A DNA stretch of 28,720 bases, taken from IMG/VR virus record IMGVR_UViG_3300030380_002596, positions 1-28,720 of that record. One strand, 5' to 3'. The position numbers and the translations under genes are program-made. Source of the stretch: a virus. Under the pieces are notes generated by a model. The model saw only the letters and a program-made list of their open reading frames with translations. It searched no databases and had not been told where the DNA came from. Shown here one piece after another: positions 16,740 through 28,588 of this stretch. The number at the start of each line of letters is the position of its first letter. The first letter of the stretch is position 1.

Positions 16740-17553
16740 CGTCTTCGTATTCTCTTACTAGTTTTTGGAGTTTCAAGATTTTTAATATTTCTTGTTCCCG
16801 TAGGTTTGCAACATTAAATTCAGAGAGTTGTTGTAGGACCTGTTTAGTATTTTCAATCATTTCCTCATCTTCTTTTACTTCGTCAAAATCCAATGAACCT
16901 TGAACACTCTCTTGTATTCTTTTAAGTTCAGTTCCCGCAAAAAGTTTAAAGTCTGCTTCGTTCTCGTTAAATGAAATAATATAACGATTAAGCAAATCCT
17001 TTTGTTCTGGCAACAAATCGGTATATTCCTCGTTAAATCTATCTGTAAATGATTTAACAACAAGATTATCCACTGGTTGCAAATCTTCTTTTACAGATGG
17101 CGATGAGGTAAGAGTTTCAATAACTTTTTGTTCCATCAAGACTCTGTTTTTAACTGGAAGCTTGTCACCAAAAATTTGAGCAACGGTTGCATATGATTTG
17201 TAATTGGGAACAAAATTGTTAAATACATCTTTCCCAAGATTGGTGTGAACCTTTTTAATTACGGCTGATTGCTCTTTGAAAATATCTTGCTGGTCAAGTT
17301 GATCATATTCTTTCTTCGCACGAAAAACCATCTTCTCGGCTGTATATTGGTCGAGACTAGACTTATCGGCTAAAGCATTAAAGCACCCCAACTCACTGAA
17401 CAATACCATACCACTGCGGAAATGTTCCTTAAGAATGGTCTTGACCTTTTGGGTGCGAACCGAGTCTTTATCAACAACTGCTTTTGTTAACTCTCTCACA
17501 AGAGTTTCGTACAAAAATGCTGTGTTTCTTTTTTTATTATGTTTGACCTTCAT
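16723..17553 (-). CDS. Unknown 276-aa helical protein after the portal gene
   Basis: A highly charged, mostly helical protein with a basic N-terminus (MKVKHNKKRNTAFLYETLVR) and a Glu-rich C-terminal coiled-coil region with NTKQVLQQLSEFNVANLREQ. No cysteine pairs or membrane segments. The gene overlaps the portal gene by 17 bases, so it is translationally coupled to it. In T4-like phages the position after gene 20 holds prohead core genes (67, 68); a core or scaffold role fits the composition but is inferred. I cannot assign a family. Confidence 0.78.
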   Translation of the reverse strand: MKVKHNKKRNTAFLYETLVRELTKAVVDKDSVRTQKVKTILKEHFRSGMVLFSELGCFNALADKSSLDQYTAEKMVFRAKKEYDQLDQQDIFKEQSAVIKKVHTNLGKDVFNNFVPNYKSYATVAQIFGDKLPVKNRVLMEQKVIETLTSSPSVKEDLQPVDNLVVKSFTDRFNEEYTDLLPEQKDLLNRYIISFNENEADFKLFAGTELKRIQESVQGSLDFDEVKEDEEMIENTKQVLQQLSEFNVANLREQEILKILKLQKLVREYEDDANND

Positions 17554-19456
17554 CTTTATTTTCCAATTGTTGTATTAATTGCTTAATATCATATTGAGTT
17601 TCAAATATTAAATCCTCTTCTGATTGTTTGTTTTCGCCCAAAGCGCCATTAGCCAAGGCTCTCATTTCACCATACCCTGTAAATAGGCCATCCCGAGTTG
17701 AACTGTGCCCTTTATTTATTGCTCGGTTCGACGAGCCGGCTGATTCTCTGTTATAAGAGCCGTTCATGCTTCGACGTCGGGCACCCTGTTTCCACTTGGG
17801 ACTTTTTACTCTCATATAGCCATTGTCGTCCCTTTGTCCAGGAGATGCATCCGGTTCTGCAAGAAGTGGGTCATCGTTGCCTGCGTCATCAGCGGCTTCA
17901 GGTTCAGCAGCAGCGTCGCCACCAGCGTCACCACCAAGATCACCAAGCGGGTCGCCGCCACCAAGATCTCCACCTTCCCCGCCTTCAGGTGCGGTACCGG
18001 CTTGTTCTATTGCTGCCGTCGATAGTGCGTCTGTGTATTGTTCAACTTGAATTCTGTCCATCTCTTCTTCAGATATCTTAAAGATATTTCTATACACCCA
18101 CTGTTTTGAAAAATACCCGTCAGTTGCAGAACCAGCAACATCAAACTTGGTTCGCATATGTTCAAGTTCTTGCAGTTCAGCGATCTTGGATGGATTGTTC
18201 AAAGTCAATTTAAAAGACAAGAGATCGTTGTTTCTATAACCCAACGTGTAAAGATGAATGATACAAATTTTTTCTAGTTCTGCAACGATGACCCGCTGAA
18301 GTCTTTGAATAGTTCTAGCAAAGCGTATGTCCTTCTGAGATAATGTTGTTTTATCTTCTTGAGCATCGGATTGTGCAAGATAAGCCTTTGGCACTTTAAG
18401 CGCTGAAAAAAGTTTATCACGTAGATAATTTACGTCATCAATATCGCCAGTAAACTGTCCACCGGCCAGGGTTTCAATTCTTGTATTACTTGCAGCACCT
18501 CGAATTGGGATGTAAAAATCCTCATCTACACTCATAGCATTGTAACGTAAATCAACTCGACCCGATTCTTCATCAACAATCTGATTTCGTTTCATTTGGG
18601 TTTTTACTTGCTCAATGTATTGTTCTACATCTTCTGCTGCCATATTGCCAACATCAATATAAAATACTCGACGCTCAGGAGAGCGGACGATGCGGTAAGC
18701 CATCATTGCATCTTCTAGCAATGTAAGCTGACGCCATATTCTTCGTGATGGTTCTAGAACCGAAGTTCCATAGGGCACGTATTTATCATTACCCAAAACA
18801 CGGAAATGAGATACTTGCCAGTTTTCGAAAGTTACCCCCGTTTGTCCCTCGGCGTTTTGCCAGTAAAATTGAATATAGTTTGGATTCGTAGGGTCAGTAC
18901 CTTCTATTCTTTCAATCTCACGAACCGGGAGTGGTATGACGTTTGTAACACCCAACTTATCGTCGATATCTAAATACAAATAATAGTCGCCGTACTTACA
19001 AGTGCTACGAGCCCAGCCAAATAAGTTCGCCTCAGAGTTTAAAACATTATATAAAAGTGTTTGTAATATATCTTTTATTTCTCTATTTTGGCAATCAATA
19101 TTGATCAGGGGATTAAAAGCCGTGGAAGTAGTAATCTCATCAGCATAAATATCTAACGCTGATGCAATCTCTGGCATATATTCCATCTGTTCAAAATCTG
19201 TATAACGCATCTGCTTGTTGCGCTGATACAAAACCTTGTTGGTTAAACCGCTAAATGGATTATGATACTCTTTTTTCTTAAACTCTTTACCAGTACTACT
19301 TGTAAAGGTGTATTTTGTAATGTCTCTTCTATTGGATCTGATAACAGCAGGTCGATCGTAATCAACCATCGGACCACTGAAGAGGCGTGTTAATCTTTTA
19401 AATAGAGGAGATTGAACATTCCTTGGGTTATTTGAGTTATTATTATTGTCTGCCAT
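17537..19456 (-). CDS. 20: Portal vertex protein gp20
   Basis: A 639-residue portal protein (T4 gp20 is 524 aa). Characteristic segments include FEQMEYMPEIASALDIYADE near residue 90, the GWARSTCKYGDYYLYLDID region, RRIWRQLTLLEDAMMAYRIV with RSPERRVFYIDVGN, and KVPKAYLAQSDAQEDKTTLS followed by QKDIRFARTIQRLQ. The portal dodecamer starts prohead assembly, docks the terminase and threads DNA. A Gly/Asp/Ala-rich low-complexity stretch lies near residues 490-540 and is followed by a Ser/Arg/Gly-rich tail, which explains the extra length. It starts two bases after the terminase stop. Confidence 0.95.
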   Translation of the reverse strand: MADNNNNSNNPRNVQSPLFKRLTRLFSGPMVDYDRPAVIRSNRRDITKYTFTSSTGKEFKKKEYHNPFSGLTNKVLYQRNKQMRYTDFEQMEYMPEIASALDIYADEITTSTAFNPLINIDCQNREIKDILQTLLYNVLNSEANLFGWARSTCKYGDYYLYLDIDDKLGVTNVIPLPVREIERIEGTDPTNPNYIQFYWQNAEGQTGVTFENWQVSHFRVLGNDKYVPYGTSVLEPSRRIWRQLTLLEDAMMAYRIVRSPERRVFYIDVGNMAAEDVEQYIEQVKTQMKRNQIVDEESGRVDLRYNAMSVDEDFYIPIRGAASNTRIETLAGGQFTGDIDDVNYLRDKLFSALKVPKAYLAQSDAQEDKTTLSQKDIRFARTIQRLQRVIVAELEKICIIHLYTLGYRNNDLLSFKLTLNNPSKIAELQELEHMRTKFDVAGSATDGYFSKQWVYRNIFKISEEEMDRIQVEQYTDALSTAAIEQAGTAPEGGEGGDLGGGDPLGDLGGDAGGDAAAEPEAADDAGNDDPLLAEPDASPGQRDDNGYMRVKSPKWKQGARRRSMNGSYNRESAGSSNRAINKGHSSTRDGLFTGYGEMRALANGALGENKQSEEDLIFETQYDIKQLIQQLENKDEGQT

Positions 19457-19458
19457 TT

Positions 19459-21030
19459 TTATCCTTTAATGATCCAATTTAGGTCGTGAGTCTTTCCGTC
19501 TGTGCCTTTAAAAGTTGTTGGATTACCTTTAAAGCCGTGCTGTCCTTGTATCTTAGTATTAAGTTTAGTAGACGATACGGATATACTAGTTAATAGTGCC
19601 TTCTTGTAATCTGCCTCCCGTTGATTCGCCGTCAGGGCTGTCCCTCTTACCCAGCAACCGATACAAGCGGCAATCACTAGGTCGTCGTTGTAACTCCTCA
19701 TAGCTTGCGGTCTTCCATTGTGCCATACAAATGTTTTGATTTCATTAGCAAGACGAATAGAATTAATAGTAATTAGTTTATTTCTCACGAATTCCTCAAA
19801 CTTCGCAATAACAAGTGGTCGAGTTTTCATAGACATAGTAAAACCTGCAACGCCACCAAGAGCCTGAGCAGACACTTCATCTACATACTCGTGAGTTGAT
19901 TTTATACTATAATACAAATTTTTATAGTCTAAATCTTGCATTCGAGTTAAGACACCGATACCTAACGAATTGTTTTCTATTATTAACAAAGCATCATTAT
20001 ACTCTGATGCCATAGAATATAATTGAGGTGCAAACATATCTGGTGTTATTTTGCCCTGATATTCTGCCACCTGTTCCATTGTTTGGGTATCAAAAATATG
20101 AGCAACACTAAAGTCTGAACCGTCACCTCTAGCAACATCGGCAACCAGAATGTATTCATTATGTGGTTCTGGTTCTTTCCATATCCAATAGTTTCTATCA
20201 AACCCTGTCTTGTGTTTTGGTTCGACAACTTTTTCTAGAATTAATTTTAAATCATCGCCGTGGATTACTGTATCACCGGAAGCATTGAAGTTACACTCAA
20301 GCTCCTGTGCGATTTCACGCCGAGACATATTTCTTGTCTCCTTTTCAAACCAAGCCTGATCTCGCTCGGGATGAACTTGCCACGGAAGACGAATTGTATG
20401 GAAGTCGTTTTTGTTTTCTTCTGCTTCTGTGTAGGTTTTGTGAAACCAATTCCCAACACCGTTAGGCGTGGATAGAGCAATACACCGACCACCAGTTGAT
20501 AGAGTCGGATAAAGACCAGCCCATAACTCGTCAATACCCTCAACAAAAGCAGCCTCATCAATAACAAGAAGAGACAATGCCTCTGAACGACCAGCGTCTC
20601 CAGAAGTTGAAGAAGCTTTTACCTGGGATCCGTTAGATAACTCAAAGGAGTTCCTGTTGTCAATAGATATGTCAGAAATTTTTAACCAAGAAGGCAAGTT
20701 CTTGTGTATAGCCTTAATTTTTTTAACCAAGTTTGCTGCTGTACCAAGCTTAGTCGCCACTACTAAAACATTTTTATCTTTATGAAAAAGCATCATCCAA
20801 GCAACATAGGCTGCCACTGTGGTCGAAATACCTAGCTGTCGAGCTTTCAGAATGACACTGAATCGGTTGTCCTTGAAATCTTTTAGTGCTTCCTCTTGGA
20901 AGTCGTACAGGTCAAAGGGAATCGAACCTCTCATAGGGTGAGAGATTTTAGCATATTTTTTACAAAAGAAGGCCGGATCTTTACCACAGCGGACAATCTC
21001 CGCCATCATCTCCTTCTTATTAAGAGACAT
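19459..21030 (-). CDS. 17: Large terminase subunit gp17
   Basis: A 523-residue packaging motor ATPase-nuclease (T4 gp17 is 610 aa). ATPase parts: a variant Walker A, KARQLGISTT at about residues 62-71, with the Lys at its start instead of after Gly; Walker B LSLLVIDEAAF near 153-162; and the coupling motif LSTPNGVGNWF near 186-196. The RNase H-like nuclease domain shows VADVARGDGSDF near 296, LIIENNSLG near 350 and YNDDLVIAA near 456. It binds the portal, cuts concatemeric DNA and pumps it into the head. No gp16-like small subunit is recognisable beside it. The two upstream unknown genes are close enough for co-expression. Confidence 0.95.
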   Translation of the reverse strand: MSLNKKEMMAEIVRCGKDPAFFCKKYAKISHPMRGSIPFDLYDFQEEALKDFKDNRFSVILKARQLGISTTVAAYVAWMMLFHKDKNVLVVATKLGTAANLVKKIKAIHKNLPSWLKISDISIDNRNSFELSNGSQVKASSTSGDAGRSEALSLLVIDEAAFVEGIDELWAGLYPTLSTGGRCIALSTPNGVGNWFHKTYTEAEENKNDFHTIRLPWQVHPERDQAWFEKETRNMSRREIAQELECNFNASGDTVIHGDDLKLILEKVVEPKHKTGFDRNYWIWKEPEPHNEYILVADVARGDGSDFSVAHIFDTQTMEQVAEYQGKITPDMFAPQLYSMASEYNDALLIIENNSLGIGVLTRMQDLDYKNLYYSIKSTHEYVDEVSAQALGGVAGFTMSMKTRPLVIAKFEEFVRNKLITINSIRLANEIKTFVWHNGRPQAMRSYNDDLVIAACIGCWVRGTALTANQREADYKKALLTSISVSSTKLNTKIQGQHGFKGNPTTFKGTDGKTHDLNWIIKG

Positions 21031-21603
21031 TTATCCCTCTGGAGTTTCTGGATTATTGGGCGCTTTGTCGTTGGATGGGCGTTTATCGGAAGCTTTATCC
21101 AGATAATCTAAAAATCTTTTGTGGTAATCTTTGTTACGGCGATCGATAGATCTTTGGGATCCCATACGAATTGATTCGACATCATCAAATCCACCAACTG
21201 CATATTGTTTATGAGCCTGTACCCAAGTGTGTACTCGTGAGGTTGTTTGTACCATTATCTCAGCATCAGAGTCCTCTGTCAAAGTAACACTGTCCTTGGT
21301 AATGTTTTTATATTCTTTTTTAAGGAATTTTACAATGTCAGCAAATTTAGCATTGATCTCGTTTTCAAACTGGTTGCGAGGGTGAAGTTCATTAAGACGC
21401 ATTTCACTCTGATAAGTTACAATCATTTTTGGACCAGCAAATCGAACCTTAAAACCATCGATAAGGCGACTATCAATAATTGGATCTCCCTCTTCACGTT
21501 TAAGTCCAATCTTCAAAGCATCGCCGTTTTCATCTAAAGCGCCATCATATGCATTTGCAGCAGCTTGGTTCAAACCTTTAATTACGTCTAGGACAGTAGC
21601 CAT
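21031..21603 (-). CDS. Unknown 190-aa protein upstream of terminase
   Basis: A soluble protein with a beta-rich middle (GFKVRFAGPKMIVTYQSEMR) and helices such as EINAKFADIVKFLKKEYKNI, ending in a Pro/Asp/Asn-rich tail after DYHKRFLDYLDKASD. No known motif is visible. Its stop adjoins the terminase start, and its start meets the end of the zinc-protein gene, so it is part of the packaging operon. A small terminase role is possible from position, but the sequence lacks the obvious helix-turn-helix plus coiled-coil design, so it is not claimed. Confidence 0.8.
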   Translation of the reverse strand: MATVLDVIKGLNQAAANAYDGALDENGDALKIGLKREEGDPIIDSRLIDGFKVRFAGPKMIVTYQSEMRLNELHPRNQFENEINAKFADIVKFLKKEYKNITKDSVTLTEDSDAEIMVQTTSRVHTWVQAHKQYAVGGFDDVESIRMGSQRSIDRRNKDYHKRFLDYLDKASDKRPSNDKAPNNPETPEG

Positions 21604-22019
21604 TATTTTCTTCTCCTTAAGGCATATTCAATATGCTCGTCTGTAGGTCGCTCGCCGTTCTTCCATGCTTCCTCTCGTCCTATAACAAAATCTAGATAGC
21701 AGTCGTGACAGCATTTAAACCTATTCATATATAGGTCGTCTCTTCTGGAAAATGAATATGTTTTACAGACGGGACAAGTACGATCCTGTTTTTGCTTGGA
21801 TCGTCGTTTGGTGATCTTAACATCACCAACAACAAACTCCTCCTTTGTGGAAGAGAGGTTGTCATTTTTCTTGGTTAACCTTTTAAGTTGTTTTAAATAA
21901 TCTTTTTCTTTATCTTCTTGCCATTGATTACGAAAATCTTGAACTGTGTCTTTGCCATACTTTTCGGTTATAGCTTTTTCGACTGCGGCTAAATAATTTG
22001 GGTCCTTCTTGGTTTTCAT
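21603..22019 (-). CDS. Zinc-binding protein with paired CxxC motifs
   Basis: A 138-residue basic protein. The N-terminal half is a charged helix region, including DFRNQWQEDKEKDYLKQLKR. The C-terminal half holds TCPVCKTYSFSRRDDLYMNR followed by FKCCHDCYLDFVIGREE, four or five cysteines that should bind one zinc ion. The DDLYMNR-K/Y-CC arrangement recurs in marine T4-like phages near terminase, as I recall. The function is unknown; nucleic-acid binding is plausible. It overlaps the signal-peptide gene by four bases (ATGA), so the two are coupled. Confidence 0.8.
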   Translation of the reverse strand: MKTKKDPNYLAAVEKAITEKYGKDTVQDFRNQWQEDKEKDYLKQLKRLTKKNDNLSSTKEEFVVGDVKITKRRSKQKQDRTCPVCKTYSFSRRDDLYMNRFKCCHDCYLDFVIGREEAWKNGERPTDEHIEYALRRRK

Positions 22020-22399
22020 TGACTAGGCTGTACCGCCCTTACAATAGCGATAGAAGTCCCTACTCCAATAATAACACCAGTCAAGAGACCAAGGGAGCCC
22101 TTGTTTCTTTTAAACCAGGTGTTGTCTTTTTGAATTGCTTCCTGAAGACTTTTAATGGATAGTTTGTACTGCTCTTGGAGTTTAGTGCAAACCTTTTTGT
22201 CCACATCACACTCTGCAATTTTTGCAATATTATCGATCTTATCTTGCAAGAGTTTGCGAAAATCTTCTTCGCTCAGTAGAATACCGACATAGATGTCGCT
22301 ACCTTCCTCAACTGCTGCTGGTCGAGGTTTAAACTCAGTAACCTCACCAGCAGTAGCACTGAGGGAAAATAATAATGATGTTGTAACTAATAATCTCAT
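22016..22399 (-). CDS. Exported 127-aa protein with C-terminal membrane anchor (spanin-like topology)
   Basis: An N-terminal signal peptide, RLLVTTSLLFSLSATAG, is visible, with likely signal peptidase I cleavage near residues 16-18. A periplasmic helical region follows, with two cysteines in ECDVDKKVCTK that could form a disulfide. A C-terminal membrane segment, LGLLTGVIIGVGTSIAIVRA, ends the protein. This topology recalls unimolecular spanins, but the lipobox cysteine they need is absent, so that call is not secure. It starts one base after the tubulin-like gene stop with an AAGAAG ribosome site. Confidence 0.75.
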   Translation of the reverse strand: MRLLVTTSLLFSLSATAGEVTEFKPRPAAVEEGSDIYVGILLSEEDFRKLLQDKIDNIAKIAECDVDKKVCTKLQEQYKLSIKSLQEAIQKDNTWFKRNKGSLGLLTGVIIGVGTSIAIVRAVQPSQ

Positions 22400-22400
22400 T

Positions 22401-23537
22401 TTACTTCTTTAAGAACTTCTTTAATCCTTCGATCCGCTTGGATGGTCGTTTAAGTCCGCTGACCAAGGTATAAGTTACAAGCTTGTCTTTCTTGTCGTCC
22501 TCGTAGATACCACGGTGAACCATAGCACCGCCAGTCAAAGCAGCCAAAGTGTCAAAGCCAAACTCAATGTTGTCCATCAAACCGACAGTCTCTTCAAAGA
22601 TCTCTTCGCTGCCAACAACAATACAAGCAGCACCTGTAGCAGTTGTCAAGTCAAAACCTTCGGCAAGAAGTGTTTTCTCTAAGTTCTTCTTAAGGGCACT
22701 TGACACGGCAGTTTCGTTCTCAAGGTTCTTAACACTGGTTACACCCATAATCATACAGCCTGGCTGCTTCATGATACTGTCGTAGTCTGTAGCATCAAAG
22801 GTTGTGTACTCTGAGTCTTGGTTTGCCAGTACGTTGAAGACGTGGAACAATCCAGCAACTGTGTTATTGATTGTGGTCCAGAACTTCTTAACTGTGAGTT
22901 TTGGATATAGTTTTTTAATCTTCTCGTTGTCTACCATAATAAGGGGAGCAATCTTTCCTTTTTCTGCTAGCCCGCAAAGCTGGGTGATGCGAGCGTGGGC
23001 ATTCTTAGCAACCTTTGGGGAAGCTGATTCGCCGGCAGTTGGAAGAGAAGCAATGACGCCGACACGTTCGTCCACGTTCTCAACACCAATATAAGTAAAG
23101 TACTTCTTGGCTACCTTGATAAGAGTGTTAACTGTGCCACCACCTGAGCCACCAGATACTCCAAGACAGATTAAGATACGATCAACGTTGCTTCCGAACA
23201 CTTCTCGAAACTTGTTAAATACTTCTTGTTCTTTGCGTTCAATGGCAGCCTCGGCTTTTGCTTGGTCTTTGCCGGCACCTTGGTCACCATGTTCATCCAC
23301 CAAAAACTTTTGCTCGGCTGGGATATCCAGACCATTCAAATCTGAGCGAGCGGTATTGACAGCTATCGTCTTAGTATAGCCTAGATCATAGAACGCCTTA
23401 GCAATGCGTCCGCCGCCTTGTCCGGCACCTACAATAGCATATGTCAGAGCACCGCCTGACTTATCTTCAATTGTTTCCTGATCCTCATTAAGGTCTGGGT
23501 CATAATCTTCGATGTCTAGTGTGGGAATATCTACCAT
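22401..23537 (-). CDS. Phage tubulin/FtsZ-like GTPase
   Basis: A 378-residue protein of the tubulin/FtsZ superfamily. Seen in order: an acidic N-terminus of about 30 residues; the first nucleotide loop, AIVGAGQGGGRIAKAFYDLG, at 34-53; the second loop, AVNTARSDLNGL, at 59-70; the tubulin signature region LGVSGGSGGGTVNTL at 125-139, with Gly/Ser order different from the usual GGGTGTG; and a T7-like loop, FDATDYDSIMKQPG, at 247-260, keeping two Asp at the catalytic spacing. The C-terminus is basic (KRPSKRIEGLKKFLKK). Phage relatives (PhuZ, TubZ) form filaments that position DNA or the phage nucleus. A TAAGGAG ribosome site precedes the ATG. A role in genome positioning or division interference is inference. 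Confidence 0.85.
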   Translation of the reverse strand: MVDIPTLDIEDYDPDLNEDQETIEDKSGGALTYAIVGAGQGGGRIAKAFYDLGYTKTIAVNTARSDLNGLDIPAEQKFLVDEHGDQGAGKDQAKAEAAIERKEQEVFNKFREVFGSNVDRILICLGVSGGSGGGTVNTLIKVAKKYFTYIGVENVDERVGVIASLPTAGESASPKVAKNAHARITQLCGLAEKGKIAPLIMVDNEKIKKLYPKLTVKKFWTTINNTVAGLFHVFNVLANQDSEYTTFDATDYDSIMKQPGCMIMGVTSVKNLENETAVSSALKKNLEKTLLAEGFDLTTATGAACIVVGSEEIFEETVGLMDNIEFGFDTLAALTGGAMVHRGIYEDDKKDKLVTYTLVSGLKRPSKRIEGLKKFLKK

Positions 23538-23550
23538 TTTACTAGTCTCC

Positions 23551-23865
23551 TTATAAATCTAGTTCTTCATGTAATCTAATTAGAGCTTTCAGTCTTTCTT
23601 CACGATCTTCAATCTTTTTTGTTTCTTTAAGTTTGCGATCGTAAATCTTTTTGATTGCTCCAATTTTATCCTTTTCCAGTGTAGCACGGATTTCATTTTC
23701 TTTTATAGCAGAATTTATTTTTCCTTGAACATTTTCCAAAAACTCAGTTTTATCTTTCGTTGGACGAACAATGTTATAAATAAACCAGATTAAGCCAAGA
23801 GCCATAGCTGCTAGAAATACAAGTGACCAAGCACTACTCTTTGCCTTGTACCAAAGTGCTTTCAC
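23551..23865 (-). CDS. One-TM coiled-coil protein, possible inner-membrane spanin
   Basis: A 104-residue protein with one membrane segment near the N-terminus (AWSLVFLAAMALGLIWFIYN) preceded by Lys residues, so the N-terminus should be inside. About 70 highly charged residues follow, predicting a coiled coil (EFLENVQGKINSAIKENEIR and on). This is the build of inner-membrane spanins (Rz type), which join an outer-membrane lipoprotein to destroy the outer membrane at lysis. It starts within the end of the holin-like gene, supporting a lysis role. No Rzl-like lipoprotein is seen, so the call is provisional. Confidence 0.7.
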   Translation of the reverse strand: MKALWYKAKSSAWSLVFLAAMALGLIWFIYNIVRPTKDKTEFLENVQGKINSAIKENEIRATLEKDKIGAIKKIYDRKLKETKKIEDREERLKALIRLHEELDL

Positions 23866-24047
23866 TTACCATGCCTCCAAGTTGAAGCAATGTCAGCAGC
23901 GCCTTGCAGCCCAATATATGCCAACGAAACAGCAACCCAGTCGCTACTAGTTAAAGAACCGACTGCTAAAAAAACCGTGGCTGTACCCCAAACAATAAGT
24001 TTGCGAGATGCCCATTTACCAAGTATATTATCAATCTTTTCTTGCAT
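23862..24047 (-). CDS. Probable holin
   Basis: A 61-residue protein with a basic start, two hydrophobic segments (KLIVWGTATVFLAVGSL at about 17-33 and WVAVSLAYIGLQGAADIA at about 38-55) and a short charged end. Size and hairpin topology fit small phage holins, which open the inner membrane at the set lysis time. The ATG has a strong GGAGGTG ribosome site. It overlaps the one-TM coiled-coil gene by four bases, which would make a lysis pair. No endolysin gene is in the window, so the evidence is topological. Confidence 0.6.
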   Translation of the reverse strand: MQEKIDNILGKWASRKLIVWGTATVFLAVGSLTSSDWVAVSLAYIGLQGAADIASTWRHGK

Positions 24048-24087
24048 GATATTAACACCTCCTTTATAGTTCTAATTAGTTCTGAGC

Positions 24088-24279: not shown

Positions 24280-24473
24280 GCTTCTGAAACCACAGTGAGA
24301 TCACTTTCGTGAATCTCATATGCTCCAACTAGGCCGTAGTTAAGTTCCCATTCTTCTGAACACCAACGGACAATCCAGTGTCCCTCAAGTGGATGTTTTG
24401 CTACGACAAGACCATAGCCGCCTGAACCCTTATCCTCAAATATGTTAGTTTGTACTAAATCACCGGGCTTCAT
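24276..24473 (-). CDS. Small GDLV-type protein, copy A
   Basis: A 65-residue acidic protein beginning MKPGDLVQTN, with GYGLVVAKHPLEGHWIVRWC suggesting a small beta barrel. Such proteins are common in marine T4-like phages and have no known role. The gene overlaps the end of the TudS-like gene by 14 bases and is followed by a similar gene overlapping by four bases, so all are translated from one message. Confidence 0.7.
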   Translation of the reverse strand: MKPGDLVQTNIFEDKGSGGYGLVVAKHPLEGHWIVRWCSEEWELNYGLVGAYEIHESDLTVVSEA

Positions 24474-24918
24474 ATTTTTTCACTCTTCGTAAAAATATTT
24501 CTTGATTTTTTTCTGACTTCATAGAACTAATCTCAGTTGTTGGGCAGTCTAACATTTGGTGCATTGGAGCTTTCATCGTAGAGCCTCGGCTCTTTACACC
24601 AACAGATAAACCACAAGAAGGAGAGTTAGAAATCCCTATAAACCCCACCACATCATCAAATCTTTCTGATATCTCTTTGCACTTTTCACTTAATTTTGAA
24701 TAAACGTTCTGATTTCCCATAATTGCCAAAACTTCGTCATCTTTTTGACGTAGCCTAATTGACGCTCTAGGTGTTCCAAAAAGCTCATGTTCTGGGCACA
24801 CCGGAACAAGTTCAAAGTTATTATTGGCAGCCCATTCTTTTATTTCTTTACTTGTTCTACTTGTTCCGTTCCATCTGACATTCTTTCCAAATACACAAGC
24901 GCTTATTAATATTTTCAC
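24460..24918 (-). CDS. DUF523/TudS-like desulfidase
   Basis: A 152-residue protein of the DUF523 family, whose characterised member TudS removes sulfur from 2-thiouracil with a [4Fe-4S] cluster. The family landmarks are present: ISACVFGKNVRWNG at residues 5-18 (Cys8), PVCPEHELFGTPR at 39-51 (Cys41 and Glu43) and NSPSCGLSVG at 98-107 (Cys102). These three cysteines should hold the cluster, and the Glu in CPE is usually catalytic. Differences from typical members are RWNG in place of RYDG and HELF before TPR. Substrates could be thiolated uracil or thiolated tRNA bases. The start is GTG, overlapping the previous TGA (GTGA). It lies in the operon led by the recombination nuclease. Confidence 0.85.
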   Translation of the reverse strand: MKILISACVFGKNVRWNGTSRTSKEIKEWAANNNFELVPVCPEHELFGTPRASIRLRQKDDEVLAIMGNQNVYSKLSEKCKEISERFDDVVGFIGISNSPSCGLSVGVKSRGSTMKAPMHQMLDCPTTEISSMKSEKNQEIFLRRVKKYEAR

Positions 24919-25418
24919 TTTAAACCTAGAAAAGTCTTATATGCTTTTGGCATTTTATTATAATAGTCTGTTCTAAGAAGTGAGCGGCGAGCCTTTTCAA
25001 GATCATCAAAATAAGCAAAATTAATCATAAAAAAAGGCATGGATGTATATGGTGAGTATCCCTCAATATTTATATCGCTATTAGGATTAAAACACAATGC
25101 TCCAATTTCACCATACCCTGCCTCTTCTAAGACTAAATTTATAAATTCTTTATAACCCTTAGTCTCTGAGGCTTTTATATTTATATTTGGCTGTCCAATA
25201 ATTGCGCTCCTTTTTCCAGAACGCACAAACCGGAGAACCACATCCACGAGAGTGTCTTTGGGTACTTCAAAAATATCTAAGTAAAGTTGATCTTTTATCC
25301 TATCAGCCTTCACAAATGGACAAACTGCGAACCCTGAGAACTCGGGTCGTTTTTCTTCTAGGACATTGATGACATAATCAGTCATCTGTTTTATTAATTG
25401 TTCCCTATTGGGAGACAT
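24915..25418 (-). CDS. Unknown CPF-motif protein (DUF1415-like possibility)
   Basis: A 167-residue protein (an earlier in-frame start at 25448 would add 10 residues). The start at 25418 is chosen because it overlaps only the last codons of the preceding gene. Features are GFAVCPFVKADR near residue 30 and a second cysteine in IGALCFNPNSDI. The rest is alpha/beta with a C-terminal basic helix (DLEKARRSLLRTDYYNK). CPFxK motifs occur in DUF1415 proteins, whose role is unknown, and in marine phage proteins of unknown function. It is translationally coupled with the nuclease fusion before it and the TudS-like gene after it. A thiol or metal role is speculation. Confidence 0.72.
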   Translation of the reverse strand: MSPNREQLIKQMTDYVINVLEEKRPEFSGFAVCPFVKADRIKDQLYLDIFEVPKDTLVDVVLRFVRSGKRSAIIGQPNINIKASETKGYKEFINLVLEEAGYGEIGALCFNPNSDINIEGYSPYTSMPFFMINFAYFDDLEKARRSLLRTDYYNKMPKAYKTFLGLK

Positions 25419-28400
25419 AAGCATACCCATCTTGACGTTCAATGTCAATAGTCATATCGGCAATATCTTTGAGACTATCCAAGTGAGTAATCAAAAGCAC
25501 AGTCTTGTAGTAGCCCTTAATCATTTCCATCACTCGCATAAAGCCTTCAAGGTTTTCGGCGTCCAAGGCTGTGCCTGGCTCATCCATAATCATAATGTCT
25601 GATTTTGGTAGGGTTGACACATTGGTTAGGGCAATGCGAATGGCAATTGCAGCCAGCGTTTTCTCTGCCCCAGAAGCCATCTCTAAAGGTCGTGCTTCGT
25701 ACTTTGGATGCTTGATGAAGATGTCTAACTTATTCTTTTCTGCCTCAAAGAAAATATCAAAGTCGGTGACGTTGGCAAGCACCGTGCTGACCTCTTCATT
25801 GATGAGAGGGAGCATCCGCTTCACAACATCGTAGCTAATTCCGTTACTGTGAGTACAGCGCATAAACAAATCATAGGCGGCGTATTCTGTACGCAGATCG
25901 TCAAGCTCTTGCTTTTTAGCCTGGAGATTGATGATCTGTTGCTCAATACCGCCGTGCTGTTTGATAAAGTCCATGATCTTAGCTTCGCAGATAGACAACT
26001 CGTTCTCGGATAGTACCTTCTGGTCGGCTAGATCGGACTGTTCTTGAATAAGCTCCTCACGGTTCTCAATAGCTTCTTTGTTGTCTTCGTAAGTTTGGAT
26101 CCGTTCGGAAGCAGTCTTGATATCATTAGTAAGCGTATTGATTTCATTGTTTGTTTTTTCTACCAGCAAATCTAGGCTGGTTGCTTCAGTTGACAGATTG
26201 CGCTGTTTCTCTAGAAGTTTCTCGTACTTTTGCTTTTGAGAACGCAGACTATCAACGTTCATCTCTGACAGCGTTTCGTTCCTTAATCTAAGGTCAGTCT
26301 GAAGATTGTAGATTGTAATCCGAGTCTCTGACAATAACTGCTTTGCTTCGTAAGCATCTTTGATATACTTGCGCAGACCACAGTCAGGACCGCAGGGTAC
26401 TTCGTCCAGTACGCTTAGCTTTTTCTCATAAGTTTCTTTATTACGAGTTTCGATCTTAAGACTTGTCTCTAGCTCTCTAATTTCTTCCTTGATAGTTAGA
26501 ACTTCAGCGATCTTAGACTCTAGAGCATCACTATCATACTCAGACAAAAACTCCTTGATATTAGCTAGTTTGTCTAGAATCCGCTCTTTCTTTGTTTGTG
26601 CGGCGGCGATGCGCAGTTCGCAGTCTTCCAGTTTCTTAGTTGCTTTTGTGAGTAGCTTGTTTTCCTTCTTGATATTAATAATCTCAACAGGAGCAGCAGC
26701 AAAGAGACTTTCTATTTCATCGACACGAGCAGTAATTTTGTTTAGTTTATTCTTAAACTTTTTACAAGCCTTCTCTTGTTTTGTCTTTTCAGTCTCGTTG
26801 TTCTCTAGTTGAGTCTCAAGATTAACAATGTCCTCATCAAATGTGTTGTCTTCGAGCTTCTTGAGCAACGCACGAGTCTCTATACTATCACTTTTAGCAA
26901 GCTTAAACTTCTTATCAAACTGATCAAGGTCTAAGAACTTGGCTAGGATTTCTTTACGCTTGGTCGAGCCCTCGTTGATAAATGTCATCGCACCCATTTG
27001 GCTGGACATACTGGTCAGTAAAAAATCATCAAGACTACCAAAGATCTTACGGATGGCTTTATCTGTGCCATTGCGATCAAGCGAGTTCATACTGACTTCT
27101 TCATCAGTAGCTGGATCAATCATCGTAAACTCTACGTCGGTCTTAGCCTCTTCTGTTTCTTCGCCGTGAAGCTTTTTAGTATATTTTTCAGACTTACGCT
27201 CAATGATATATGTTTTGCCCGCAACATCAATCTCAACTCGACCACAACCTGATGACTTATTCTGATTGATGATATTAAGATTCTTGCGATTGTTCTTACT
27301 GATAGAGTTATAAATCGTATATAGCGCACTATCAATAATAGAGCTTTTGCCTGAATAGTTCTTTCCAAAGATCCCAACGACGCCGTTAAGCTTTTCGAAG
27401 TTTACAGTATTACTCTCTCCATAATTAAAGAGATTGTCAAACTGCATGTTCTTTAGCGACCACTTCACATTACGATGACTTGCGTCTTCGCCATTAACTC
27501 GGGCATCATATCTGGAGTTAAGCTGGAAAACCTTTTCCAAGGTCTTGGTGTCAGGTTCATACTCTTTTAAGTATTCCCGAATAAGTCGTTCTTGTACTTG
27601 CGGATCACGAAGGTTCTCCGTGCTGCCTAGGTCGTCAACATCTACACTAGAGCGCTTGAGCCCAGCCTTGTTAACAAAAGATAAACTCTCAGGCTTAAAC
27701 CTGCTCTTAGCAGTGTCCATCACTCGGCGAATCTTATCTAGCGATACTTTGTGATGAGTAACGATACGCAGGCGGCAACCCTCTTGAATATCCAAGTTGC
27801 GTGGCATATTACCTTTGGGAGTAAGCTCAATTGTAGTGAATGGCTTAGGGTTCTCTAGGACGTGGTGATTAACCTCGTAGTTAGTTTTGTCCTCAATGTC
27901 CCAGACCAAAAAGCCCTTGTCGTTTGTCTCGCCGTGATTCTGCTGGATAGTGGAACCACAGTAGCGGATTGTACCCGTATCATTGAGACACTGATTAGTC
28001 TTGTGAATATCCCCAAGGAACGCATAATCAAACTTATCAAAGACAGCTACGTCGTGATCGCCGTGGTCCATGATCCAACCAAGGTCGGTTCGACTGTTGT
28101 TAACTGCTCCGTGGTATAGGGCGATGTTAATGCGATCAGTGTCTGTTGGATCTGTCCAGTTGGTCTCATCGAAGACTGACAACACGTTTAGCGTGACGTT
28201 ATGATCTAATTTTACTTCCCCTGAAAACTTGTGTAGGTGAAGGTCAGGGTGCTCCAAAGCATCCACGATTGGAGTGATGGCGTCTTGACGAGTACTGTTT
28301 CGCAGGTTGCCGTCGTGATTCCCAAGGATAATGTGAGTTGGAGCGATGTCTGCTAGGTTCTTTAGGAACTCTGTAGCCAACTCAAAGTACTCTGGTGAAA

Positions 28401-28557
28401 GCTGTGTCTTTGTGTGGGCTAGATCACCGCAGTGGATAATGTAATCCACCTTCTGTTCTCGTAGCATTTCATAAGCTTGTTCAAAGACCTTACGATATTC
28501 GTAATGATATTTGAGGTTCTTGATATGTGTATCACCAAAGTGTGCGAGCCGTACCAT
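25405..28557 (-). CDS. Fused Mre11-Rad50 recombination nuclease/ATPase (gp47-gp46 fusion)
   Basis: One 1050-residue polypeptide. Residues 1-340 are Mre11/SbcD/gp47-like: FGDTHIK (7-13), HCGDLAH (42-48), LGNHDG (78-83), LYHGA (147-151) and GDIHK (182-186) are the metal and phosphate ligands. From about 365 to the end it is Rad50/SbcC/gp46-like: Walker A GKNYSGKSS near 400, two long coiled-coil arms meeting at CGPDC near 722-726 (the hook), signature ASGAEKTL near 960, Walker B IMIMDEPGTALD near 990 and the switch LLITHLD near 1020. In T4 these are two genes (gp47, 339 aa; gp46, 560 aa) that resect ends for recombination. The ATG at 28557 is chosen over an upstream GTG because CAGGAGA lies before it; a sigma70-like promoter is upstream. 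Confidence 0.93.
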   Translation of the reverse strand: MVRLAHFGDTHIKNLKYHYEYRKVFEQAYEMLREQKVDYIIHCGDLAHTKTQLSPEYFELATEFLKNLADIAPTHIILGNHDGNLRNSTRQDAITPIVDALEHPDLHLHKFSGEVKLDHNVTLNVLSVFDETNWTDPTDTDRINIALYHGAVNNSRTDLGWIMDHGDHDVAVFDKFDYAFLGDIHKTNQCLNDTGTIRYCGSTIQQNHGETNDKGFLVWDIEDKTNYEVNHHVLENPKPFTTIELTPKGNMPRNLDIQEGCRLRIVTHHKVSLDKIRRVMDTAKSRFKPESLSFVNKAGLKRSSVDVDDLGSTENLRDPQVQERLIREYLKEYEPDTKTLEKVFQLNSRYDARVNGEDASHRNVKWSLKNMQFDNLFNYGESNTVNFEKLNGVVGIFGKNYSGKSSIIDSALYTIYNSISKNNRKNLNIINQNKSSGCGRVEIDVAGKTYIIERKSEKYTKKLHGEETEEAKTDVEFTMIDPATDEEVSMNSLDRNGTDKAIRKIFGSLDDFLLTSMSSQMGAMTFINEGSTKRKEILAKFLDLDQFDKKFKLAKSDSIETRALLKKLEDNTFDEDIVNLETQLENNETEKTKQEKACKKFKNKLNKITARVDEIESLFAAAPVEIINIKKENKLLTKATKKLEDCELRIAAAQTKKERILDKLANIKEFLSEYDSDALESKIAEVLTIKEEIRELETSLKIETRNKETYEKKLSVLDEVPCGPDCGLRKYIKDAYEAKQLLSETRITIYNLQTDLRLRNETLSEMNVDSLRSQKQKYEKLLEKQRNLSTEATSLDLLVEKTNNEINTLTNDIKTASERIQTYEDNKEAIENREELIQEQSDLADQKVLSENELSICEAKIMDFIKQHGGIEQQIINLQAKKQELDDLRTEYAAYDLFMRCTHSNGISYDVVKRMLPLINEEVSTVLANVTDFDIFFEAEKNKLDIFIKHPKYEARPLEMASGAEKTLAAIAIRIALTNVSTLPKSDIMIMDEPGTALDAENLEGFMRVMEMIKGYYKTVLLITHLDSLKDIADMTIDIERQDGYAYVSQ

Positions 28558-28588
28558 AGACGAGCTTCTCCTGTAGTTTTCCAACACT

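Follow-up and report, generated by a model that had tools for sequence, protein, structure and literature searches.

A distinct, slowly evolving tubulin encoded in a putative packaging operon of T4-like phages with no detected nucleus

The stretch of viral DNA analyzed here (28,720 nucleotides, IMG/VR record IMGVR_UViG_3300030380_002596; hereafter the window) encodes a member of a distinct tubulin subfamily, which evolves more slowly than the terminase and capsid proteins and lies within the putative packaging operon of a group of T4-like phages in which no nucleus was detected. Most of what is known of phage tubulins comes from nucleus-forming jumbo phages, in which PhuZ can be dispensed with, and from plasmid-like partition systems. 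In the literature searched, which lacked most subscription papers, no T4-like phage outside the jumbo class is described as carrying a tubulin, which does not prove absence. New features of the system are the fixed position of the gene in every relative checked, its top conservation among the 30 window genes, a clean empty site in related phages and, at the head of the putative operon, a motif that also precedes sheath, tube, neck and scaffold genes, as well as the absence of TubR and of a C-terminal tail in combination with an invariant N-terminal peptide, and a 68% identical branch in a distant T4-like lineage. As to function, we infer, at about even chances, a late GTP-driven filament that organizes virion assembly or DNA packaging.

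The open reading frame at 22401..23537 on the minus strand has an ATG start and an AAGGAG ribosome-binding site, and its 378-aa product belongs to the tubulin/FtsZ superfamily, with a core at about residues 28-378 that includes a short last helix (residues 366-375). The assignment, already made in the original prediction, is borne out by two Pfam profiles that pass their cut-offs (Tubulin PF00091, E 5e-9, 37.1 bits against a cut-off of 33; TubZ-like_C PF22453, E 4e-7, 30.5 bits against 26) and by the fold of an AlphaFold2 model built from 24 sequences (pTM 0.82, mean pLDDT 75). By sequence the nearest solved structure is TubZ/RepX 4ei7 (E 7e-12), with CetZ and FtsZ next; in the fold search the model matches TubZ 4ei7 with a Z score of 35.3 over 332 residues at 2.7 Å, followed by CetZ2 (Z 32.8), the c-st phage TubZ (about 30) and FtsZ (about 27-30). 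A Rossmann fold outside the tubulin superfamily, the alternative raised together with the original prediction, was checked on the model and is ruled out by the fold search, in which TubZ, CetZ and FtsZ structures all score Z values between about 27 and 35.

The GTP site is equally well preserved. The nucleotide loops, the Gly-rich loop and both T7-loop aspartates that had been read from the sequence are present in the frame and near-invariant among its relatives: the T4 signature loop GVSGGSGGGT occupies residues 126-135 (23133..23162, minus strand) and the T7 loop TTFDATDY residues 246-253 (22779..22802, minus strand), where D248 and D251 correspond to the catalytic position by alignment to FtsZ and TubZ, and in 71 members G39-G43, G129-T135, D203-N204, N224, D248 and D251 are invariant or nearly so. 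The signature had been singled out as divergent, a description that proves too strong: VSGGSGGGT is only mildly unusual next to the GGGSGGG, GGGSGSG and GGGTGNG of plasmid TubZs and CetZ, and a loop within that range gives no sign of lost function. On sequence grounds, GTP hydrolysis and polymerization by the protein are predicted.

In the protein tree the phage family forms a clade of its own (support 100/99). The best tree sets it beside FtsZ and CetZ with support of only 30/26 and long branches, and topology tests return AU p values of 0.30 for a grouping with TubZ and phage G and 0.26 for one with PhuZ. The protein is a separate subfamily, closest to TubZ in sequence and fold. Its closest relatives, among solved structures and among plasmid proteins alike, are partition filaments of the TubZ type (22-27% identity in the plasmid matches with the best coverage), which, together with the TubZ-like_C domain, would suit a TubZ/TubR-type segregation of phage DNA in a plasmid-like or pseudolysogenic state. 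The locus speaks against such a role: in the plasmid TubZ loci examined, a gene of TubR size immediately precedes that for TubZ, whereas no TubR is found beside the phage tubulin, the upstream gene of which encodes a membrane protein; the locus has no tubC-like iteron array and the protein no C-terminal tail; and the gene is located in the structural-gene operon of a T4-like phage. We consider segregation distinctly unlikely.

A first scan of IMG/VR yielded at least 88 relatives of the tubulin, 84-100% identical among the matches listed; because relatives were collected with exact short-peptide scans, in which divergent members are missed, such counts are lower bounds. The gene is present in every clade member checked, always at one fixed position. 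In a comparison with four phages, no other gene among the 30 window genes is as conserved as the tubulin gene, whose product is 90-97% identical, with the terminase at 78-92%, the portal at 67-80% and the capsid protein at 63-73% in the same four, and 254 of its 378 residues, including most of the T1, T3, T4 and T7 loops, are invariant in the 71 members. Its fourfold-site difference of 0.46-0.67 is comparable to that of other genes, with synonymous sites near saturation, and dN/dS is about 0.02-0.03 where measurable; together these values point to extreme purifying selection, and with synonymous sites so close to saturation the high identity is not explained by a recent sweep or by recombination. 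Such conservation is compatible with any task that requires a polymer. One relative carries an in-frame stop codon within its tubulin gene (L023 1555-1557), which may be a sequencing error. No close cellular homologue was detected by a peptide-pattern scan of 84,980 genomes.

The tubulin gene lies in a putative minus-strand operon whose order is the same in every locus long enough. The first gene encodes a holin-like small hydrophobic membrane protein of 61 aa (23862..24047, minus strand) and the second, directly upstream of the tubulin, a 104-aa protein with an N-terminal transmembrane segment and a charged coil, a spanin-like shape (23551..23865, minus strand). The tubulin is followed, 1 nt past its stop codon, by the gene for a 127-aa protein with a signal-peptide-like N-terminus and a C-terminal transmembrane segment (22016..22399, minus strand), then by those for a 138-aa protein with Cys pairs that may form a zinc site (21603..22019, minus strand), a 190-aa protein just before terL that by its position could be the small terminase (21031..21603, minus strand), the gp17-like large terminase (19459..21030, minus strand) and the gp20-like portal protein (17537..19456, minus strand). 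The predicted location beside packaging genes stands, with terL and the portal gene in the same putative operon. Of the 'lysis-like' neighbors, the part that holds is that they are small membrane proteins; none gives a significant lysis-family match in profile searches, and the lysis label is a fair guess only. Elsewhere in the window, positions 24460-24918 hold a gene of the DUF523/2-thiouracil desulfurase family (PF04463, E 6e-19) that occurs in part of the clade only, and positions 25405-28587 encode a fusion protein of 1060 aa that combines an Mre11/SbcD half with a Rad50/SbcC half.

Sister phages with terminases 50-65% identical retain the same gene block, the 61-aa holin-like gene included, without the tubulin; at the empty site the flanking genes overlap by 4 nt in one record (L187, 4785-4788) and by 8 nt in another (L235, 3104-3111). 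These phages bear directly on the idea of a lysis- or membrane-linked cytoskeleton, a filament that would position or time the operon's holin- and spanin-like proteins. Such a link would fit the placement of the tubulin, which in the window lineage is fixed between two membrane-protein genes and in the 68% identical branch again precedes a gene whose small product has a hydrophobic segment at its N-terminus. However, the membrane genes keep the same order in the sister phages and hence do not need the tubulin, and the lysis role of these neighbors is itself putative, lacking a lysis-family match, so that we judge this link distinctly unlikely.

Beyond the empty site, an alignment-based search found no tubulin in five long records (two sister phages and three from the immuto clade), and none was present near terL in 80 immuto-clade loci. 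Those phages of the window lineage that carry the tubulin group together as a single clade in the terminase tree (100/99); over the whole tree at least two changes of tubulin state are needed, a count that bears on the choice between a single gain and an older gain followed by losses. The 68% identical second branch belongs to a distant T4-like lineage with a terminase only about 35% identical, in which the tubulin is again found a few genes upstream of terL; the disparity between the two proteins suits either transfer or slow evolution. A third tubulin, 29% identical (L398 2936-4147, on G020 contig C25), is carried by a phage-like contig in a Halobacteriovorax MAG, has a long acidic N-terminus and no C-tail, and is found beside PhoH, a second phage-type tmRNA and PrkA.

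Expression of the operon can be approached through a putative late-promoter motif, ACTAATTA, located 33 nt before the first operon gene (24073..24080, minus strand). On the coding strand of the window, ACTA[ACT]TTA occurs 9 times, where 2.1 copies are expected (0 of 200 shuffles); the other strand has none. Seven of the nine copies are placed 29-76 nt ahead of a gene, and the genes so preceded include those for the sheath, tube, neck and gp22 as well as the one that opens the tubulin operon. In a 178.6-kb relative, ACTA[CT]TTA is found 23 times on the coding strand, with 4.9 expected. Among relatives, 49 of the 53 different sequences upstream of the first operon gene contain the motif (43 of them exactly at -33), and it precedes none of the inner genes, tubulin, terL and portal included; by eye, a variant, GCTAATTAG, occupies the corresponding place in some sister phages. 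We infer that ACTA[ACT]TTA is a putative late promoter and, as the motif is shared with the upstream regions of structural genes, that the tubulin is probably transcribed late and as one unit with the terminase, the portal and the pair of small membrane proteins. The T4 late promoter TATAAATA was also considered as the operon promoter and was not seen in sense orientation before the operon; over both strands of the whole window, TATAAATA-like octamers with one mismatch allowed number 69 against 37.5 expected. In several relatives (L030, L040, L045, L055 and others) the leader before the holin-like gene forms a perfect hairpin, ATATCTACAG-AGGAGGTG-CTGTAGATAT, with the Shine-Dalgarno sequence in its loop; the hairpin is weaker in the window itself, and translational control of the operon through it is possible.

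The termini of the protein set it further apart. Codons 1-25 (23463..23537, minus strand) encode a peptide with the invariant motif IPxLxIEDYDPxLxE, which the 68% branch retains as IPxLPLE(D/N)(F/Y)xP. Residues 1-24 of the model have pLDDT below 50, so that the peptide is probably disordered, and the near-invariance of the motif, next to residues that vary after it, points to a partner-binding peptide. At the other end, no tail was found after the last helix, the model ending with helix 366-375. The first residues of the motif, [DNE]IPxL, loosely recall the LDIPAFL tail of E. coli FtsZ, and, with the protein's place in the FtsZ superfamily, lend something to the second role originally envisaged, interference with host division, in which co-assembly with host FtsZ or competition for its partners would block septation and give elongated cells and more phage. 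Yet the likeness is limited to IPx(L/F), the catalytic site and the whole surface are preserved, which would be needless in a simple poison, and the neighbors of the gene are late structural genes, while the takeover of a host usually falls early in infection. We regard interference with FtsZ as unlikely.

The genomic setting is that of a T4-type phage, in agreement with the original prediction: the window holds homologues of gp17, gp20, a gp21-like protease, a gp23-like capsid protein, sheath, tube and the Mre11-Rad50-like fusion. The longest records with the same tubulin measure 172-190 kb. The 178.6-kb relative encodes DNA polymerase III alpha, RecA, a GroEL-family chaperonin, an FtsH-like protease, IMPDH, PrkA, SpoVR and DUF444 proteins, five tRNAs and one tmRNA; the latter, with the tag ANDDFQLALAA (L094 4108-4430, minus strand), adjoins a PhoH-related gene. 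PrkA, DUF444 and SpoVR families are found in one part of that genome, with a PrkA-DUF444-third gene cassette at about 6446-10898 of L095; in a phage-like contig of a Halobacteriovorax MAG the corresponding PrkA and DUF444 proteins are 65% and 54% identical. PrkA, used as bait for the host, had a single match, which lies on a phage-like contig in the bin of a Halobacteriovorax MAG and gives no more than a hint of a link to that host. A search of three records of 172-190 kb, with positive controls, detected no RNA polymerase beta subunit, and the phiKZ nuclear shell protein (gp54, chimallin) had no match in one genome by a single-sequence search, which is a weak probe. The tubulin-bearing T4-like phages are widespread and, going by the records, mostly marine.

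Taken together, the conservation of the whole surface, the intact catalytic residues and the probable co-transcription with late genes lead us to favor a filament for assembly or packaging and, of the two roles first suggested, to lean toward positioning of DNA or capsids over interference with FtsZ. We propose that the tubulin would be made late, together with the terminase and portal, and would polymerize into a GTP-driven filament that gathers or moves procapsids, or holds phage DNA and the packaging motor together, with the N-terminal peptide acting as a partner-binding handle in place of the TubZ C-terminal tail. The capsid role is suggested by analogy with PhuZ in phiKZ; against the analogy, cargo transport by PhuZ is tied to a phage nucleus, and no match to a nuclear shell protein turned up in the one genome searched. 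The fuller version, in which T4-like phages of ordinary size (about 180 kb) that are abundant in the sea would possess a nucleus-free cytoskeleton, an essential tubulin filament produced with terminase and portal and using its N-terminal peptide as a cargo handle to gather or transport procapsids or DNA for packaging, is put forward tentatively, as a possibility we would not yet bet on. If true, tubulin-based virion logistics would extend well beyond nucleus-forming jumbo phages. As relatives with and without the gene differ at a clean empty site, the role of a tubulin in a phage with no detected nucleus is directly testable.

Of the isolated phages, the T4-like Flavobacterium phage immuto and Microcystis phage Mel-JY01 come nearest (terminase 44-46%, capsid 46-48% identical); they differ in having no tubulin near the terminase. 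The FtsZ-like gp138 of Bacillus phage G, the sole INPHARED match (21% identity), is likewise a phage tubulin outside the nucleus-forming group, but has another gene neighborhood, a C-terminal extension and no supported grouping with the present family. The best viral structural match, A0A6J5RW92 of an uncultured Caudovirales phage in BFVD ('FtsZ Cell division GTPase'; 27% identity, query TM 0.84), differs in its length of 452 aa. FtsZ itself is set apart by its C-terminal domain, FtsZ_C PF12327 giving no match in the phage protein and 3e-37 in E. coli FtsZ, and by its C-terminal conserved peptide, for which the model has no C-tail. TubZ, of the TubZRC systems of Bacillota plasmids and c-st-type phage, is nearest in sequence and fold, with similar GTP loops and T7 loop; unlike it, the phage tubulin comes without TubR, iterons and C-terminal tail and has an acidic N-terminal peptide, and the canonical TubZ_C PF21493 has no match up to E 10, while plasmid TubZ scores in the same library. 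PhuZ of phiKZ-like nucleus-forming phages is likewise the tubulin of a large tailed phage. Its C-terminal domain is different (PF22334 has no match in our protein and scores 2e-37 in phiKZ PhuZ; PHROG 4733, PhuZ, reaches only E 0.16), and its chimallin and msRNAP context has no match here in the one genome and three records searched, respectively. PhuZ is the precedent for a phage tubulin that transports capsids (PMC8314001, PMC10299810, PMC13282480), which move along its filaments as these treadmill (PMC8314001, PMC10299810). PhuZ is nonetheless non-essential and absent from about one-third of Chimalliviridae (PMC10299810), and is among the early phiKZ transcripts (PMC13282480), whereas the tubulin described here is present in all members of its clade that were checked and has the position of a late gene, with a role in late capsid movement plausible for it as for PhuZ.
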